The translations under genes and the position numbers were made by a program. Positions 569 through 7,651 of a DNA stretch of 64,000 bases are shown here, one piece after another; the first letter of the stretch is position 1; each line of letters opens with the position of its first letter. Source of the DNA: Blautia sp. Marseille-P3201T (GTDB lineage: Bacteria > Bacillota > Clostridia > Lachnospirales > Lachnospiraceae); contig NZ_LT635470.1 in assembly GCF_900120295.1 (NCBI RefSeq), positions 1 through 64,000 of the forward strand, written 5' to 3'. A model generated the notes under the pieces. That model searched no databases, was not told the origin of the DNA, and saw nothing but the letters and a program-made list of their open reading frames with translations.

Positions 569-2917
569 CTATAAAACCTTTATAAACTTATAATAGAAAT
601 ATTTTGTTTTGGGCAGTTTCTTAAGAAAAGCTTTTTGTGATTTACGATAAGCAAAACGCAGTGTGCGGATTTGCTGCTTTGTAGGCTTTTTATTTCCAAA
701 ATATATTTCTTCTGCTTCGTTGCATAGTTTTTCAAAGGAATTTTGTTTTTCCTCAGGAAGTTGTTTCGTGAATTTTTGCTTCCAGTCATAAGCAGCTAAA
801 TCTTTTTCAGAAATTTTAAATTCTGCTTGCCATAGTTTTAAAAGATTTTGATAAAGCAGAAAATAACTTTTTGTGCGGCTATGGACAAAGTAGCCTATTC
901 TTTTTTTGTACAAAATTTGATAGCGCAAAACGAATAGCAATAGGAGAATACAAAATCCCAGCAAAAATTTGAAAATAAACAGATAATTCTTTTTTTCAGG
1001 TTTATTTTGCTTTTGTGCTTTGGTTTCAGAAGGTTTTTCAGTTTCTGAATTCGTATTTTTCTCCTGAGAGTCAGGTTTGGTTGTCTCAGGATTTTCCGAA
1101 GACGGTGGAACTTCTGTATTCGGAATGCTGTTTTCTGGTGTATTTGTAGAAATATTTGTGTTTTCATTAACAGAGCTGGGAGGAGTGACCTCCACCGGAA
1201 CCCAGATACCGTTTCCAATATAAACTTCCGTCCATGCATGGGCGGAACTGTCTTTCACATTACAAGTAAAAGTTTTGCTATCTTTCTTAGTAAAGTCTTC
1301 AGGTTGTGCCACATAACCGGTGACATATCTGGCTGGAATTCCATACATCCGAAATAATAAAGTACCTGCGGTAGCAAAATGTACGCAAAATCCCCGGTGT
1401 TGTTCATATAAAAATTCATATAAAAAGTTGCTGTCTGAAGATACCGGTGCAAGAGAAAGGCTGTACGATGCCTTAGATTTTAGAAAATTTTGTATTTCTT
1501 CTGCGGCCTCTTGGATAGTATCGAAGTCAGGATTGTCACTTATATTAGTGTAAACAGGAAATCCCGAAAGGTCAATTTTTAATCTGGAAGAAATTTCTGA
1601 GTCGTCATCCATGTATTTCTGTCGTACATAATTTCCATAGTTTTTATTCAAAGATTGGTATTTCTTTGGCACACCACTTTCGGAAGTAAAAAGTAAGGAT
1701 GCTGATGTAAGAGAAAGTGGATAATAGGAAAGCTTATGAGGCATAGAAAATTTACTTTCTATTGCATAGGTATCATCAAAAATAGTATTTTTTGATAGTT
1801 TTACACCATAAGGAAAATAGGTAAATTTCTGTGCAAATTTAGGCACCACAGAAAGGGATGTAATTTTATCAGGTGCGTTTTCTTTTCCCATTGTGTAAGG
1901 CAGAGAAAAGAAATTTTGGAGTTCATCATCTGAAAGTCGGTTCTTTTCATAAAAGCTGTCCCACGAGTCTGAAGCTGGTGCGCTCCATACAGCATCATCA
2001 TAATCCTGTCCGACAAATCCTCGTAAATACAAGGGAGAAGAAGGTTTTTCCTTACATGTTATTTCAAACATGGTCTGCCTGCTATATACCGGCGCTCGGT
2101 TACTTAAAGTCAGCTGTTTATTAGAACTCTCCTGTTCAAAAGAAAAAAACGGTTTCGAAGAGGAACTTTTTGTATTTTGGGATTGTGGTAAAAAAGTTTT
2201 ACTAAAATTGTCAGTGAACTCGTTGACTGTCTTGTGAACCGCATGGTTGTATTTAAAAACTTCAGGAGCAAAATGCGGAACAAGAAATCGGATACACATA
2301 AAATAAAGTCCTAAGGCAAGAACAAGAGCTATGGGTTTTGTCGAGTACCAGAAAAGGCAGGCACCGATTATACATCCTATGGATAAATAGGATGGGGAAA
2401 CACCCAAGAAAAAGTTCAAAAAAACAGGAAGACTTAATAATACAAAAAACAGAAAAGATTTTTTATATTGCAGCAACAGCGAAAGCAGGAGTAAAAAAAG
2501 ATAAGTGACTGCAAGAAAAAGGAAATTCAAATCTATTTTTTTTACAGTTGTTGCAGAGGCATTTAAATATTCCTCCTGAAAAAGTATCTGAAGCCTGTGT
2601 AAAAAGGAATTTCCCTGTGTAAAAAAGCGTTTTCTGTATAAATAAAGAGTAAAGACATAAGGAAGTACAGAGGCAAGAAAACGTACAGGAAGTTTTTTGA
2701 TTTTTTGTAAAATCGTTAAAAAGAAGGAAAACAATCCAAGTATTAGTATAATTTTGTAATTCAAAGCAGCAGAAGAAATCATGAGTAAAAGACTGGAATA
2801 AATACCCAAAGCAAAAGTAAAAAGGGTAAAAAAGGAATAAAAAGAAGAAGGTACACCGACTGCGTGTTTTTCTTTTGGTATAATTATGGAAATAGAAGGC
2901 TTGTCTTTCTTTTTCAT
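569..2917 (-). CDS. membrane-anchored transglutaminase-like protein (TgpA type)
   Basis: A 782-residue protein with several N-terminal membrane segments (about residues 25-215), an extracytoplasmic region, a transglutaminase-like core, a Ser/Thr/Glu/Pro-rich linker (about 580-645), another membrane segment (about 650-670) and a cytoplasmic tail resembling DUF4129. Core motifs are GFCVHFA (Cys ~511), AHAW (His ~560) and WVPVEVTP (Glu ~576). The third position is Glu rather than the usual Asp of the Cys-His-Asp triad. The start at 2917 is chosen because AAAGGAGA precedes it; an upstream in-frame ATG at 2980 would overlap the preceding gene. It is the last gene of a MoxR-DUF58-transglutaminase operon, a common trio of uncertain role, probably in processing or assembly of secreted or membrane proteins. 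Confidence 0.88.
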   Translation of the reverse strand: MKKKDKPSISIIIPKEKHAVGVPSSFYSFFTLFTFALGIYSSLLLMISSAALNYKIILILGLFSFFLTILQKIKKLPVRFLASVLPYVFTLYLYRKRFFTQGNSFLHRLQILFQEEYLNASATTVKKIDLNFLFLAVTYLFLLLLSLLLQYKKSFLFFVLLSLPVFLNFFLGVSPSYLSIGCIIGACLFWYSTKPIALVLALGLYFMCIRFLVPHFAPEVFKYNHAVHKTVNEFTDNFSKTFLPQSQNTKSSSSKPFFSFEQESSNKQLTLSNRAPVYSRQTMFEITCKEKPSSPLYLRGFVGQDYDDAVWSAPASDSWDSFYEKNRLSDDELQNFFSLPYTMGKENAPDKITSLSVVPKFAQKFTYFPYGVKLSKNTIFDDTYAIESKFSMPHKLSYYPLSLTSASLLFTSESGVPKKYQSLNKNYGNYVRQKYMDDDSEISSRLKIDLSGFPVYTNISDNPDFDTIQEAAEEIQNFLKSKASYSLSLAPVSSDSNFLYEFLYEQHRGFCVHFATAGTLLFRMYGIPARYVTGYVAQPEDFTKKDSKTFTCNVKDSSAHAWTEVYIGNGIWVPVEVTPPSSVNENTNISTNTPENSIPNTEVPPSSENPETTKPDSQEKNTNSETEKPSETKAQKQNKPEKKNYLFIFKFLLGFCILLLLFVLRYQILYKKRIGYFVHSRTKSYFLLYQNLLKLWQAEFKISEKDLAAYDWKQKFTKQLPEEKQNSFEKLCNEAEEIYFGNKKPTKQQIRTLRFAYRKSQKAFLKKLPKTKYFYYKFIKVL

Positions 2918-2928
2918 GAGTATCTCCT

Positions 2929-4029
2929 TTATAAAATAAGTGTGTTGTTTTTCAAAGCTTCCGAAGTGTTGCCGGAACAATCTAAAAGAAGCTGTTGATT
3001 TTGATAAATCTGTAAATCTGTATTTAAGAGAAAGGTTGTAAAATAAGTATCACAAGGATAGGTGCAGGAATACAGAGAATACAGGTTTTCTTTTGAAGCT
3101 GTAAGGGTTTCATACAGTAATTGATGCAAAAAAGAAAGGTAATCTTCTTCATTTCGAATGGGGATACGAAGAAGGGCATGTTCTTTTTCGTTATACCATA
3201 CAATAAAATGGTTGCAGCCGTAATAGAGGAAAGAGTAAGAAAGAGAGGCTGCATATTGCAAAAAAGTACTGTATTGCGAAGGAGAGGCCTTTTTATCGGA
3301 CTTTCCTTTCTCTAAGAAAAGAAGTATAGGGAAGCCCTTTGGTCTGCCGGTTTCTTTTACTAATAACTGGTCTGTACGTGCACTGAGCTTCCAGTGAATT
3401 TGTCTTAGCTTGTCGCCGGGAAGAAATTCCCGTATATCGCTTGTGTGGTAAGAGCCTGCACCGGAAACAATTTCCTCAAATCCGTCACATTCTGCTGAAA
3501 AAAATCGTATTCCTTCACTTAGTTGTATAGGAATTACAAAAGGGGAAGGATAAAAAAGAATATCAGACTTTGCTTTACAAGCCACGGATAGACTCAGCAG
3601 GTGTGTAAAACTGTATATTCGGACCTTATTCGTCTGTAAATGAAATTTCCCATAGTAATCATTGGCAATATTGCCTGATAGAACACTGGTTTTTCTCGCA
3701 TTTAGGGAAAAGCAGTAATCAGGCAGGGAAATTTTATTTTGAAAAGCATCTGTAAAATGCCATTTCAGCCGAATATAAGGCATGGGAAAAACTCCGGTAT
3801 TTTGTGCCTGTAAATGAAATTCTAAAAGCTTGTTTGATTCGTTGTCGTTAATGATAATGTCAGGCAATTCAACTTTTAAATGTCTGCGGCTGTATAGTAA
3901 AATCATAAGCTCCAGTATCCAGTCTATAAAAAGAAAGAGAAACAGAGCACAGGCAGCTGTACTTTGATATAAAATTGCAAGATAAAGACATAGAAGAAGC
4001 AGTAAAAAAGTTATGAGATTAAAAACCAT
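2929..4029 (-). CDS. DUF58 domain-containing protein
   Basis: A 366-residue protein with two N-terminal hydrophobic segments (about 4-46) followed by a beta-rich region and the DUF58 signature DIREFLPGDKLRQIHW with SAR (about 198-218). DUF58 proteins have a von Willebrand A-like fold and are nearly always encoded beside MoxR ATPases, which are thought to act on them as chaperone-like partners. Here it sits 22 bp after the MoxR gene and 11 bp before the transglutaminase, clearly one operon. The biochemical function is unknown. Confidence 0.9.
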   Translation of the reverse strand: MVFNLITFLLLLLCLYLAILYQSTAACALFLFLFIDWILELMILLYSRRHLKVELPDIIINDNESNKLLEFHLQAQNTGVFPMPYIRLKWHFTDAFQNKISLPDYCFSLNARKTSVLSGNIANDYYGKFHLQTNKVRIYSFTHLLSLSVACKAKSDILFYPSPFVIPIQLSEGIRFFSAECDGFEEIVSGAGSYHTSDIREFLPGDKLRQIHWKLSARTDQLLVKETGRPKGFPILLFLEKGKSDKKASPSQYSTFLQYAASLSYSFLYYGCNHFIVWYNEKEHALLRIPIRNEEDYLSFLHQLLYETLTASKENLYSLYSCTYPCDTYFTTFLLNTDLQIYQNQQLLLDCSGNTSEALKNNTLIL

Positions 4030-4051
4030 AAAACATCCTTTCTTGTAGACT

Positions 4052-5002
4052 TTAATGTCTGCTTCGCACAGACGGAGAAGGTGTGGCAGCTAAAATTTCT
4101 TTTAAAATAGAGTAGGCAGACACTTTGCTTATGCGGGCTTTTGAGCTGATAAGAATACGATGTGTACAAACATCACAGAAAACGCTGTGCACATCCTCCG
4201 GACGTACATAATTAAATCCGTGTAAAAAGGCTCTTGCCTGAGCCATTCGTGTCAGAGCCAGAGTACCTCTTGGGCTTACACCCAGTTCAATTAAGTGATG
4301 ATTTCGTGTGGCGTGAATAAGAGCCACGATATATTCATAGATAACATCGTGAATAAAAATATTTTGACATTCTTTTTGTAACTGTATCAGTTGTCTGGCA
4401 TTTAAAACAGGTTGTACGGTCTCAATGGTATTTTCTGCCAATCTGCCTTTTAAAATAGAAATTTCTTCGTTTTGTTCCGGATAACCGATTTGCAGACAAA
4501 TGCTGAAGCGGTCCATCTGAGATTGGGGAAGAAGTTGAGTTCCGGCAGAGCCGGCAGGATTTTGTGTAGCCATTACAATAAATGGCTTTGGCACAGGATG
4601 TGTAGCTCCGTCAACGCTGACTTGCCCCTCTTCCATAACCTCTAAAAGGGCAGACTGTGTTTTGGGAGAGGTACGGTTGATTTCGTCTCCCAAAAATAAG
4701 TTGCACATCACTGCTCCGGGCTGATAATAAAATTCATTTGTTTCCTTTCGATACATGGTAAATCCTGTTAAATCAGCGGGAAGAACATCCGGTGTAAAGG
4801 TTAAACGGTTTTCTTTTAAATTTAGTGCTTTGGCAAAAGCAAGAGCCATGGTAGTTTTTCCTACACCAGGAACATCTTCAAGCAAAATATGCCCGTTGCT
4901 TAAAATAGCCATCATGATTTTTTCAATACATTTATCTTTTCCGATTACGGCTTTTTGCACTTCCTGAATGACTTTATATGCAAGAGTAGTATTGGTGTCC
5001 AT
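4052..5002 (-). CDS. MoxR family AAA+ ATPase
   Basis: A 316-residue single-domain AAA+ ATPase. Walker A is GVGKTT (about 46-51), Walker B/sensor region is LFLGDEINR (about 102-110), followed by the MoxR-typical SPKTQSALLEVMEE. The C-terminal lid contains SPRGTLALTRMAQARAFLHG. MoxR ATPases are chaperone-like enzymes helping assemble or activate partner protein complexes. It is the first gene of the operon, with AGGAGG seven bases before the ATG and a good promoter upstream. Confidence 0.93.
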   Translation of the reverse strand: MDTNTTLAYKVIQEVQKAVIGKDKCIEKIMMAILSNGHILLEDVPGVGKTTMALAFAKALNLKENRLTFTPDVLPADLTGFTMYRKETNEFYYQPGAVMCNLFLGDEINRTSPKTQSALLEVMEEGQVSVDGATHPVPKPFIVMATQNPAGSAGTQLLPQSQMDRFSICLQIGYPEQNEEISILKGRLAENTIETVQPVLNARQLIQLQKECQNIFIHDVIYEYIVALIHATRNHHLIELGVSPRGTLALTRMAQARAFLHGFNYVRPEDVHSVFCDVCTHRILISSKARISKVSAYSILKEILAATPSPSVRSRH

Positions 5003-5800: not shown

Positions 5801-6379
5801 ATGGATATAAAAAGTTATTTTAATAAGATGGCAGATAATTGGGATGAAGATATTTTACCCATAGATGAAATCAGAAGGTGTATTGTATTTTTAAGCGGTA
5901 TAAAAGAACATACGCATATTTTGGATGTTGCTTGTGGTACAGGAGCTATGTTTGCGGCTTTACAGGAGAAAAATCCAGAGCATGTAACAGCAGTTGACAT
6001 ATCGGAAAAGATGGTGGAAATTGCTAACAATAAAGTGAAAGACAATCCTTTATTTGATGTAAGATGTGGTGATTTTTTTGAAATAGAAGATGAGAAATAT
6101 GATTGTATTATGATTTATAACGCATATCCTCATTTTATAGATAAAGAAAAGTTGGTCGCAAAAGTGTCACAATTATTAACGCCAGATGGGAGATTTGTTG
6201 TGGCGCACGGAGCAGGGAAAGAAATAATTAATTTACATCATTCAAATGTGCCAAAAGAGATTACTTCGCATCTATTATCAGCAGAGGAAGAAAGTAAATA
6301 CTGGAAAAAATATTTTAATATAGATATTTTAATTGATATACAGGAATTTTATATGTTTTCAGGTACTCTTGCACTTTAA
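5801..6379 (+). CDS. class I SAM-dependent methyltransferase
   Basis: A 192-residue protein with the Rossmann-type SAM-binding motif ILDVACGTGAM (about 43-53), an acidic motif II (VTAVDIS) and a CGDFFE region (about 86-91). It resembles small UbiE/Methyltransf_25-like enzymes. The methyl acceptor is unknown. It follows the ECF S component by five bases, so the two likely act on related cofactors or nutrients; this is inference. Confidence 0.85.
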   Translation: MDIKSYFNKMADNWDEDILPIDEIRRCIVFLSGIKEHTHILDVACGTGAMFAALQEKNPEHVTAVDISEKMVEIANNKVKDNPLFDVRCGDFFEIEDEKYDCIMIYNAYPHFIDKEKLVAKVSQLLTPDGRFVVAHGAGKEIINLHHSNVPKEITSHLLSAEEESKYWKKYFNIDILIDIQEFYMFSGTLAL

Positions 6380-6393
6380 AATACTAAAATTTA

Positions 6394-6422
6394 TTGACAA
6401 ATAAAAAAAACAGTTATATGAT
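6394..6422 (+). promoter_or_regulatory. promoter of the aroF leader transcript
   Basis: A perfect -35 TTGACA (6394-6399) and -10 TATGAT (6417-6422) with 17-bp spacing. It lies about 35 bp before the leader peptide start, giving a leader transcript of roughly 210 nt before the DAHP synthase start codon. Confidence 0.8.
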
Positions 6423-6455
6423 AAATATAATTTTTAGAAAGAAAAGGAAAATGTG

Positions 6456-6572
6456 ATGATGAAGCAGAAGAAAATTGATACAAATAAAAAGTATTATTTT
6501 TCTTACCTGGGCTATTTTTATAGTGCGGGTATTTTCTGCTGTAATAAACATTTAGAGTTGCAATCATTTTAG
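6456..6572 (+). CDS. Tyr/Phe-rich leader peptide of the DAHP synthase attenuator
   Basis: A 38-codon open frame starting with two ATGs (6456, 6459), preceded by AAAAGGAAAA and ending at TAG 6570-6572. Residues 13-22 read YYFSYLGYFY, i.e. five Tyr and two Phe among ten codons (6492-6521). This is the classic arrangement of an amino-acid-biosynthesis leader peptide: ribosomes stall at Tyr/Phe codons when charged tRNA is scarce. The frame lies between a strong promoter and an intrinsic terminator directly upstream of DAHP synthase. The frame is read directly; the function is inferred from position, composition and RNA pairing. Confidence 0.8.
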   Translation: MMKQKKIDTNKKYYFSYLGYFYSAGIFCCNKHLELQSF

Positions 6573-6623
6573 TAAGTGATGAAGCGCCGGTGTTTGCATA
6601 CAGCAGACATCGGCTTTTTATTT
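6535..6623 (+). promoter_or_regulatory. transcription attenuator upstream of aroF
   Basis: The terminator is a 12-bp stem, GCCGGTGTTTGC (6586-6597) with GCAGACATCGGC (6603-6614), loop ATACA, followed by TTTTTATTT. A competing antiterminator exists: TCTGCTGTA (6535-6543, within the leader peptide codons) is exactly complementary to TACAGCAGA (6599-6607), which spans the terminator loop and its 3' arm. A ribosome stalled at the Tyr/Phe codons (6492-6521) would leave 6535-6543 free to pair and break the terminator. A ribosome reaching the stop codon would cover it and allow termination. Confidence 0.78.
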
Positions 6624-6640
6624 CGGAGGAGGAAAAGACT

Positions 6641-7651
6641 ATGATTTTAGTATTAAAAAAAGGAGCAGATGAAAATAAGGTGGAAAGCTTGAAGCAGCAG
6701 CTGAAAGATATGGGATTAGGACTCCATTTATCAGATGGAGCCAATGCTTCCCTAATTGGATTGATTGGAGATACAACAGAAATTGACGCAGAATGGTTAG
6801 GAGCTTTAGAAGTTGTAGAGTCTGTTAAGAGAATTAAAGAACCATATAAGAAAGCAAATAAAGATATGCACCCTAATGATACAGTCATTGATGTGGCTGG
6901 AAGAAAAATTGGCGGGGGACATTTTCAGGTAATTGCAGGACCGTGTTCTATTGAAAGCAGAGAGCAGATGACAGAAGTTGCCAAGGATGTAAAAATGGCA
7001 GGTGCAGGATTGCTAAGAGGAGGAGCTTTTAAACCCAGAACTTCTCCCTACTCTTTTCAGGGACTTGAAAATGAAGGACTGCAAATGCTTTTAGAAGCTA
7101 AGAAAGCAACAGGGCTTCCGATTGTAACAGAGATTATGAGTGCTGAACATCTTCCATTATTTGAAGATGTAGATGTTATTCAGGTAGGAACAAGAAATAT
7201 GCAGAATTTTCAGCTGTTAAAAGAGCTGGGAAAAGTAGATAAACCAATTTTGTTAAAAAGAGGTATGGCAAATACATTAGAGGAGCTCTTGATGAGTGCA
7301 GAATATATTATGGCAGGGGGAAATGAAAAAGTTATTCTCTGCGAGAGAGGTATTCGTACATTTGAGACTTCTATGAGAAATACCTTAGATATTTCAGCCA
7401 TTCCTATGCTGAAATCAAAAACACATCTTCCCGTAATTGTAGATCCAAGTCATGCAGCAGGTATTCGTTTTATGGTAGAGCCTCTTACTATGGCTGCTAT
7501 TGCTGCAGGAGCAGATGGAGTAATGATTGAGGTGCATAATAATCCGGAAAAAGCACTTTGTGACGGAAAGCAGTCTTTGACACCAAAGAGCTTTGAAGAG
7601 TTGATGAAAAAAGTCAGAAGAACAACAGAATTTTTCCAAAAAGAGATGTAA
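6641..7651 (+). CDS. aroF: 3-deoxy-7-phosphoheptulonate (DAHP) synthase, type I-beta
   Basis: Condenses phosphoenolpyruvate and erythrose 4-phosphate, the first step of the shikimate pathway. The 336-residue protein has an N-terminal ferredoxin-like/ACT-type domain (about 1-68) and a TIM-barrel synthase domain with QVIAGPCSIESREQ, LRGGAFKPRTSPYSFQG and IVDPSHAAG. This architecture is that of the Thermotoga type I-beta enzyme, where the N-terminal domain binds aromatic amino acids. The start at 6641 follows GGAGGAGG by eight bases. Transcription is probably controlled by the Tyr/Phe leader attenuator just upstream. Confidence 0.95.
   Translation: MILVLKKGADENKVESLKQQLKDMGLGLHLSDGANASLIGLIGDTTEIDAEWLGALEVVESVKRIKEPYKKANKDMHPNDTVIDVAGRKIGGGHFQVIAGPCSIESREQMTEVAKDVKMAGAGLLRGGAFKPRTSPYSFQGLENEGLQMLLEAKKATGLPIVTEIMSAEHLPLFEDVDVIQVGTRNMQNFQLLKELGKVDKPILLKRGMANTLEELLMSAEYIMAGGNEKVILCERGIRTFETSMRNTLDISAIPMLKSKTHLPVIVDPSHAAGIRFMVEPLTMAAIAAGADGVMIEVHNNPEKALCDGKQSLTPKSFEELMKKVRRTTEFFQKEM

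Follow-up and report, generated by a model that had tools for sequence, protein, structure and literature searches.

The window analysed here, i.e., the whole stretch of DNA under study, comprises 64,000 nucleotides of contig NZ_LT635470.1 of Blautia sp. Marseille-P3201T. It contains aroF (positions 6641-7651), a gene for a type I-beta DAHP synthase with a ferredoxin-like regulatory domain (NF006421, TIGR01361, PF18152), which lies on the plus strand, as do all features of its upstream region that are described below. DAHP synthases with a ferredoxin-like domain, such as the one from Thermotoga, are inhibited by Tyr and Phe. The best protein match is a record of Candidatus Blautia stercoravium with 88% identity, and the genome is Blautia-like.

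Upstream of aroF, a sigma-70-type promoter (6394-6422; 11 of 12 consensus matches) is formed by the boxes TTGACA (6394-6399) and TATGAT (6417-6422), spaced by 17 nt. Inspection by eye revealed TTGACA-type sites in the matching position in most relatives of the genus. The promoter is followed by a leader ORF of 38 codons (6456-6572), which starts with an ATG at 6456, ends with the stop codon at 6570-6572 and encodes MMKQKKIDTNKKYYFSYLGYFYSAGIFCCNKHLELQSF; the in-frame GTG at 6453 and ATG at 6459 are alternative starts. Within this ORF, the run YYFSYLGYFY (6492-6521) supplies five Tyr and two Phe residues and constitutes the putative control codons. An intrinsic terminator comes next, with a 12-bp stem built from a 5′ arm (6586-6597) and a 3′ arm (6603-6614), a loop (6598-6602) and a T-run at 6615-6624 (TTTTTATTTC). 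The locus thereby combines a leader ORF carrying a run of end-product codons with an intrinsic terminator ahead of the first gene. Promoter, leader and terminator had all been proposed in a first-pass annotation of this DNA, and each was found at the position given there.

Two mutually exclusive pairings connect these elements. Segment 1 (6463-6471), the protector arm, is complementary to 6532-6540, a pairing seen both in the sequence and in computed folding. Segment 2 (6532-6543) includes, besides these nucleotides, the left arm of the antiterminator (6535-6543), which consists of the codons for F-C-C. The latter stretch is the exact reverse complement of 6599-6607, so that the 9-bp competing pairing of the earlier annotation is correct, and by its coordinates the Cys28-Cys29 pair (6537-6542) indeed falls inside the antiterminator arm. 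When the tail (6522-6585) was mononucleotide-shuffled 5000 times, only 11 of the shuffles reached a 9-nt match to the hairpin. In addition, the RNA from 6428 to 6640 folds better than 200 out of 200 shuffles (z -6.63).

Further upstream, an AT-rich element at 6374-6389 (CTTTAAAnnnnTAAAA, CTTTAAA-N4-TAAAA) precedes the promoter and is, by eye, kept in Blautia relatives, including G001, a genome of the same genus. A role as an operator is not supported, with 8 copies in the genome vs 11 for the backward control. Three consecutive genes that adjoin one another are located at 569-5002 of the minus strand; one has weak chelatase/AAA-ATPase matches below the cut-offs, and for the other two an NCBIfam search gave no match.

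Recurrence of the leader before aroF and pheA

Regions upstream of aroF were collected from 80 named contigs, 20 genomes obtained by a genus search, a family sample and a phylum sample. Of 259 loci, five for which less than 150 nt upstream was found (L033, L053, L194, L213, L217) were dropped. The 254 usable loci were chosen by similarity and not at random, and some genomes occur twice (e.g., L002/L085, L003/L103 and L004/L105); L101, which is another gene, and L100 and L102, which are parts of one split gene, were retained. The leader score of a locus is the number of Phe or Tyr residues in the best ten residues of a short ORF.

The first-pass annotation had regarded a ribosome-mediated attenuator at a clostridial aroF as unusual. 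The occurrence of such an element in Clostridia is supported, but it is not isolated, as illustrated by similar leaders with a score of at least 6 at 109 of the 254 aroF loci (at least 7 at 84), counts that are not prevalence figures. Apart from the window itself, these loci are distributed over the genus (17/21), contig (50/78), family (13/67) and phylum (28/87) groups. The other 145 loci score under 6, although this cut-off misses evident leaders such as those of L002, L085 and L106, which score 5. Among 5080 dinucleotide shuffles, 1.7% score at least 6 and 0.3% at least 7. Of 458 further genes at these loci, eight score at least 6 and one at least 7; for 157 antisense regions these numbers are four and two. 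The single control gene with a score of at least 7 has a real leader before pheA, and the remaining seven of the eight look like chance. A terminator of -8 kcal/mol or better is present downstream of the leader at 130 of the 138 loci scoring at least 5, and a site resembling a ribosome-binding site precedes 81 of 91 leaders.

In the genus, the leader was recognized by eye in 19 of 20 genomes, including the one studied here, and its frame is kept in all 18 leader-bearing congeners. The exception is G001 (L100/L102), in which the ribosome-binding site of aroF directly follows the promoter, without leader or terminator; the aroF gene of this genome is broken in two where the frame changes, around residue 228, which may reflect decay or an assembly error. 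When presence of the leader (91 rows) is mapped onto a FastTree tree of 150 DAHP synthases, it requires 22 changes, vs 46.7 for shuffled labels. Judged from these sequences, leaders form clusters on the gene tree, with numerous gains or losses, and near-copies add to the clustering. Some of the aroF genes for which no leader was scored may lie further inside operons that are attenuated. A contig labelled Coriobacteriales (L013) carries this aroF together with a Tyr/Phe leader, which could point to transfer or to a mislabelled MAG. Near the leader-bearing aroF of L148, a PyrR binding-site match is located at 46-145 of the minus strand (56.4 bits, cut-off 54).

A profile search built from 27 leader peptides finds one place in the own genome and gives matches in 4 of 196 order-level genomes and in 22 of 293 class-level genomes (the own genome being counted in both); as the profile misses known leaders (e.g., in G560), these numbers do not give prevalence. 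Outside the own genome there are 24 matches, 17 of which lie by aroF and one by pheA, while six lie at neither and are attributed to chance. The plasmid collection yielded no match.

Similar leaders also precede pheA in two other genomes. In L281 (1389-1750), a promoter with 12 of 12 matches is followed by a leader with FFFSWGHFYFSAGSFCC, a terminator (1632-1665) that seems to pair elsewhere, and the prephenate dehydratase gene. In L116 (reverse strand, 249-1433 and onward), a leader with FYAYYFYFQGF...SFCC and a Blautia-type terminator is succeeded by pheA, aroF, tyrA and aroB. For the pheA gene of the genome studied here, no leader was seen by eye and a genome search gave no T-box.

Pairing between leader tail and terminator

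Pairing was studied in a set of 109 non-redundant loci, distinct from the 109 loci scoring at least 6 and defined by a score of at least 5 and by a terminator that reaches -12 and lies no more than 65 nt from the stop codon. On average, the leader tail pairs with its own terminator at -20.3 kcal/mol and with those of others at -14.8 kcal/mol (z -17 after removal of row and column means). Controls gave z values of -3.7 for reversed tails, -1.4 for shuffled tails, -3.6 for leader starts and -0.3 for upstream segments. In the 86 loci outside the Blautia-like group, the 5′ arm plus loop accounts for the fit (z -13.5) more than the loop plus 3′ arm does (z -3.5); the corresponding values for the 23 hand-picked Blautia-like loci are -5.2 and -4.1. 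Locus by locus the fit is modest, with a z below -2 for the 5′ arm plus loop in 37 of 107 loci. The computed gain from pairing between tail and hairpin while the RNA grows is 11.5 kcal/mol over the 109 loci, vs 5.5 kcal/mol for shuffled tails. All 15 shuffled tails are exceeded at 65 of the 109 loci (6.8 expected); the 44 failing loci include L148, L156, L203 and L207 from the phylum sample, which may pair elsewhere.

The first-pass annotation had placed the antiterminator as in trp. In the window, its partner is instead formed by the terminator loop (6599-6602) and the adjoining five nucleotides of the 3′ arm (6603-6607), and not by the 5′ arm. The tail fits the loop plus 3′ arm with z -2.8; pairing with the 5′ arm plus loop, the topology of the trp/his type, is unsupported (z 0.3). 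Only 10 of 107 loci have a z below -2 for the loop plus 3′ arm, i.e., the window and others that include the congeners L082, L083, L088, L090, L097, L098 and L099. In congeners with a repeated GCAGC in the hairpin (e.g., L084, L087, L091 and L095), the 5′ arm plus loop fits better. On this sequence evidence, the predicted loop plus 3′-arm layout is secure for the window and the seven congeners, not for the whole genus.

An alignment of 20 sequences from the genus reveals co-variation. The terminator has standard pairs in 236 of 236 cells. For the antiterminator, taken as 12 pairs with the loop plus 3′ arm and extending over the Gly codon GGY, the share is 95.2% (228 cells). Fourteen antiterminator cells are changed on both sides, a count that none of 500 shuffles attains. 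Against this, pair types are no more numerous than in the shuffles (all 500 have as many), and 80 of the 500 attain the observed number of pairs changed on both sides; in these pair tests, shared ancestry is only partly removed. The co-varying columns are 62/136 (GC 15, AU 4) and 63/135 (CG 14, UA 5). Their changes go together with a change of Cys-Cys to Cys-Tyr in the peptide and of CAGCA to TAGCA in the loop. As their right sides lie in the terminator loop, stem stability cannot explain the co-variation. The first-pass annotation had named conservation in related species as the check on its reading, and leader frame, terminator and alternative pairing were found to recur and to co-vary.

The protector pairing is likewise recovered beyond the window. 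Over the 109 loci, the stretch of 60 nt that precedes the aromatic run pairs with its own tail at -21.3 and with the tails of others at -16.3 (z -14.9, vs -3.0 for the reversed control). The leaders of other families have the residues AAE on the N-terminal side of the run and FAA on its C-terminal side, which may reflect the protector arms at the coding level.

Proposed attenuation mechanism and its alternatives

The arrangement upstream of aroF is best read as a transcription attenuator in which a translating ribosome would report the charging of both tRNA-Tyr and tRNA-Phe, and this reading is highly probable. The first-pass annotation had arrived at the same reading, which gains support from recurrence and co-variation. 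We infer that the leader is translated, that ribosomes stall in it and that readthrough responds to Tyr and Phe. If both amino acids are ample, the ribosome would run towards the stop codon at 6570-6572 and cover segment 2, allowing the terminator (6586-6614) to form. If Tyr or Phe is short, the ribosome would stall within 6492-6521 and segment 2 would stay free. Free segment 2 could then pair with the emerging terminator loop and zip into the 3′ arm, upon which the polymerase would pass the T-run. Without translation, segment 1 (6463-6471) would hold segment 2 and the terminator would again form.

Computed folding agrees with an alternative structure that is incompatible with the terminator and that a ribosome could mask. 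A ribosome with Tyr22 in its A site would cover the RNA to about 6531. In stepwise folding of RNA left unoccupied from 6532 onward, the antiterminator is the most stable structure at RNA ends between 6602 and 6613, e.g., -25.4 vs -11.4 kcal/mol at 6607. The terminator overtakes it at RNA end 6614 (-28.2 vs -25.9 kcal/mol) and is the more stable structure at full length (-28.2 to -29.3 vs -25.9 kcal/mol); to work, the switch would therefore need to depend on kinetics. If the RNA is free only from 6585, as with a ribosome on the stop codon, the terminator forms (-20.9 kcal/mol). Segment 1 ends approximately 20 nt before the first control codon, and therefore a ribosome stalled at these codons would not cover it.

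The composition of the run indicates what may be sensed. Across 91 leaders, the mean content of the ten-residue run is 3.7 Phe, 3.4 Tyr and 0.07 Trp, and 78 of these leaders have at least two Phe and at least two Tyr in the run. This composition suggests sensing of Phe and Tyr but not of Trp.

Other explanations for the leader can be envisaged. The nascent peptide itself, through a tail such as SAGxFCC, might arrest the ribosome in response to free Tyr or Phe or another ligand, the aromatic run being part of the arrest sequence. A G-x-F-C-C tail is recognizable in distant leaders, also before pheA in L281; however, within the genus the tail residues change as RNA pairing predicts (FCC, FCY, FRC), Tyr and Phe interchange within the run, and run length varies, which makes arrest improbable. 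The leader could also be a functional small protein rich in aromatic residues with its own terminator, aroF being expressed by leaky, unregulated readthrough. Its promoter, ribosome-binding-like site and terminator do resemble those of a small gene. Such a protein would not account for a tail that fits its own terminator well beyond the controls and co-varies with loop positions; moreover, the peptide is strongly variable in sequence and length, and it stays before aroF or pheA, as found in the profile search. An unregulated small gene is accordingly considered even less probable than peptide arrest.

Least probable of all is that a T-box or another ligand-binding RNA has been misread as a leader peptide. 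T-boxes control other genes of this genome and are found upstream of 6 of the 254 sampled aroF loci, yet the recurring part at the leader-bearing loci is a coding frame with an aromatic run, and RF00230 was not found at the window locus. No Rfam family reaches its gathering score between 6380 and 6640, the best match below cut-off being L20_leader with 24.5 bits (cut-off 58.7, E 0.007), and in ten leader-bearing relatives Rfam gave no attenuator family. Considering the sequence data as a whole, the recurring Tyr/Phe attenuator is very likely real and functional.

Relation to known attenuators and to T-boxes

Attenuators of enterobacteria combine a leader rich in the amino acid of the pathway with mutually exclusive protector, antiterminator and terminator structures. 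The element described here is similar to the trp, his and pheA systems in having a pathway-rich leader peptide and mutually exclusive pairings. It differs in that codons of two amino acids are present and in that, in the window, the antiterminator uses the loop and 3′ arm instead of the 5′ arm, and segment 1 precedes the control codons.

Several related leaders have been described besides the trp, his and pheA attenuators of enterobacteria (PMC1183508). The aroF gene of Corynebacterium glutamicum has a putative leader with Phe-Tyr-Phe (PMC4046766), which, compared by description, belongs to another phylum and has a short run. Upstream of aroF in Acholeplasma, uORFC-13-1 is a uORF with one or more Phe codons located beside a terminator, with 24 representatives from Acholeplasma and environmental sequences that contain at least one Phe; the same source also cites an idea for E. 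coli aroF (PMC8632094). As described there, uORFC-13-1 has no Tyr run, unlike the leader in the window. His leader peptides are present in Bacillus and Clostridia (PMC2965389, PMC9413887). By description, they too are attenuators that use a leader peptide, in a phylum (Firmicutes) with many T-boxes, but they control histidine genes.

A literature search, with most subscription papers outside its scope, found no paper on a leader peptide of clostridial aroF or pheA. Lopatovskaya et al. (2010; cited in PMC4833913) reportedly provide, judging by the title, a comparative analysis of bacterial amino-acid attenuators and may report part of this family. To the extent searched, the family appears to be new, and the window's own kind would represent a variant of the switch, within a class of mechanism that is already known.

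Amino-acid control in Gram-positive bacteria is usually told in terms of T-boxes and TRAP. A search for a TRAP gene (PF02081), which recovered that of Bacillus subtilis as a positive control, gave none in the genome studied here. T-boxes (RF00230) likewise sense tRNA charging and switch a terminator but, unlike a leader peptide, need no leader translation. In the own genome there are 11 T-box matches elsewhere, 9 of them over the cut-off. They precede cysE, leuS, pheS, brnQ, proS, tyrS, thrS, ileS and metG, as well as a trpX-like gene (under its cut-off); the remaining one precedes valS, as judged by eye. At six of the 254 aroF loci (L019, L215, L220, L223, L233 and L246), a T-box, confirmed by Rfam, occurs instead of the leader, from which it follows that the two can replace each other at aroF. 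One hypothesis for the use of a leader is that its two codon types would answer a shortage of either amino acid, whereas a T-box reads one tRNA. More tentatively, and with somewhat less than even confidence, we suggest an old, uncatalogued family in Clostridia that responds to a lack of Tyr or Phe, precedes aroF or pheA operons and would exist beside T-boxes for the same tRNAs within one cell because one leader reads both; in the layout of the window and its close relatives, antiterminator pairing would start at the loop, extend into the 3′ arm and prevail through timing rather than stability.

In gut Clostridia, the enzyme that opens aromatic synthesis appears to be controlled by ribosome stalling, in a genome whose tyrS and pheS genes have T-boxes. 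A single cell would allow a comparison of two charging sensors for the same tRNAs, and the large number of natural pairs of tail and terminator, together with a layout in which the competition would have to be settled while transcription proceeds, would make the question of timing testable.
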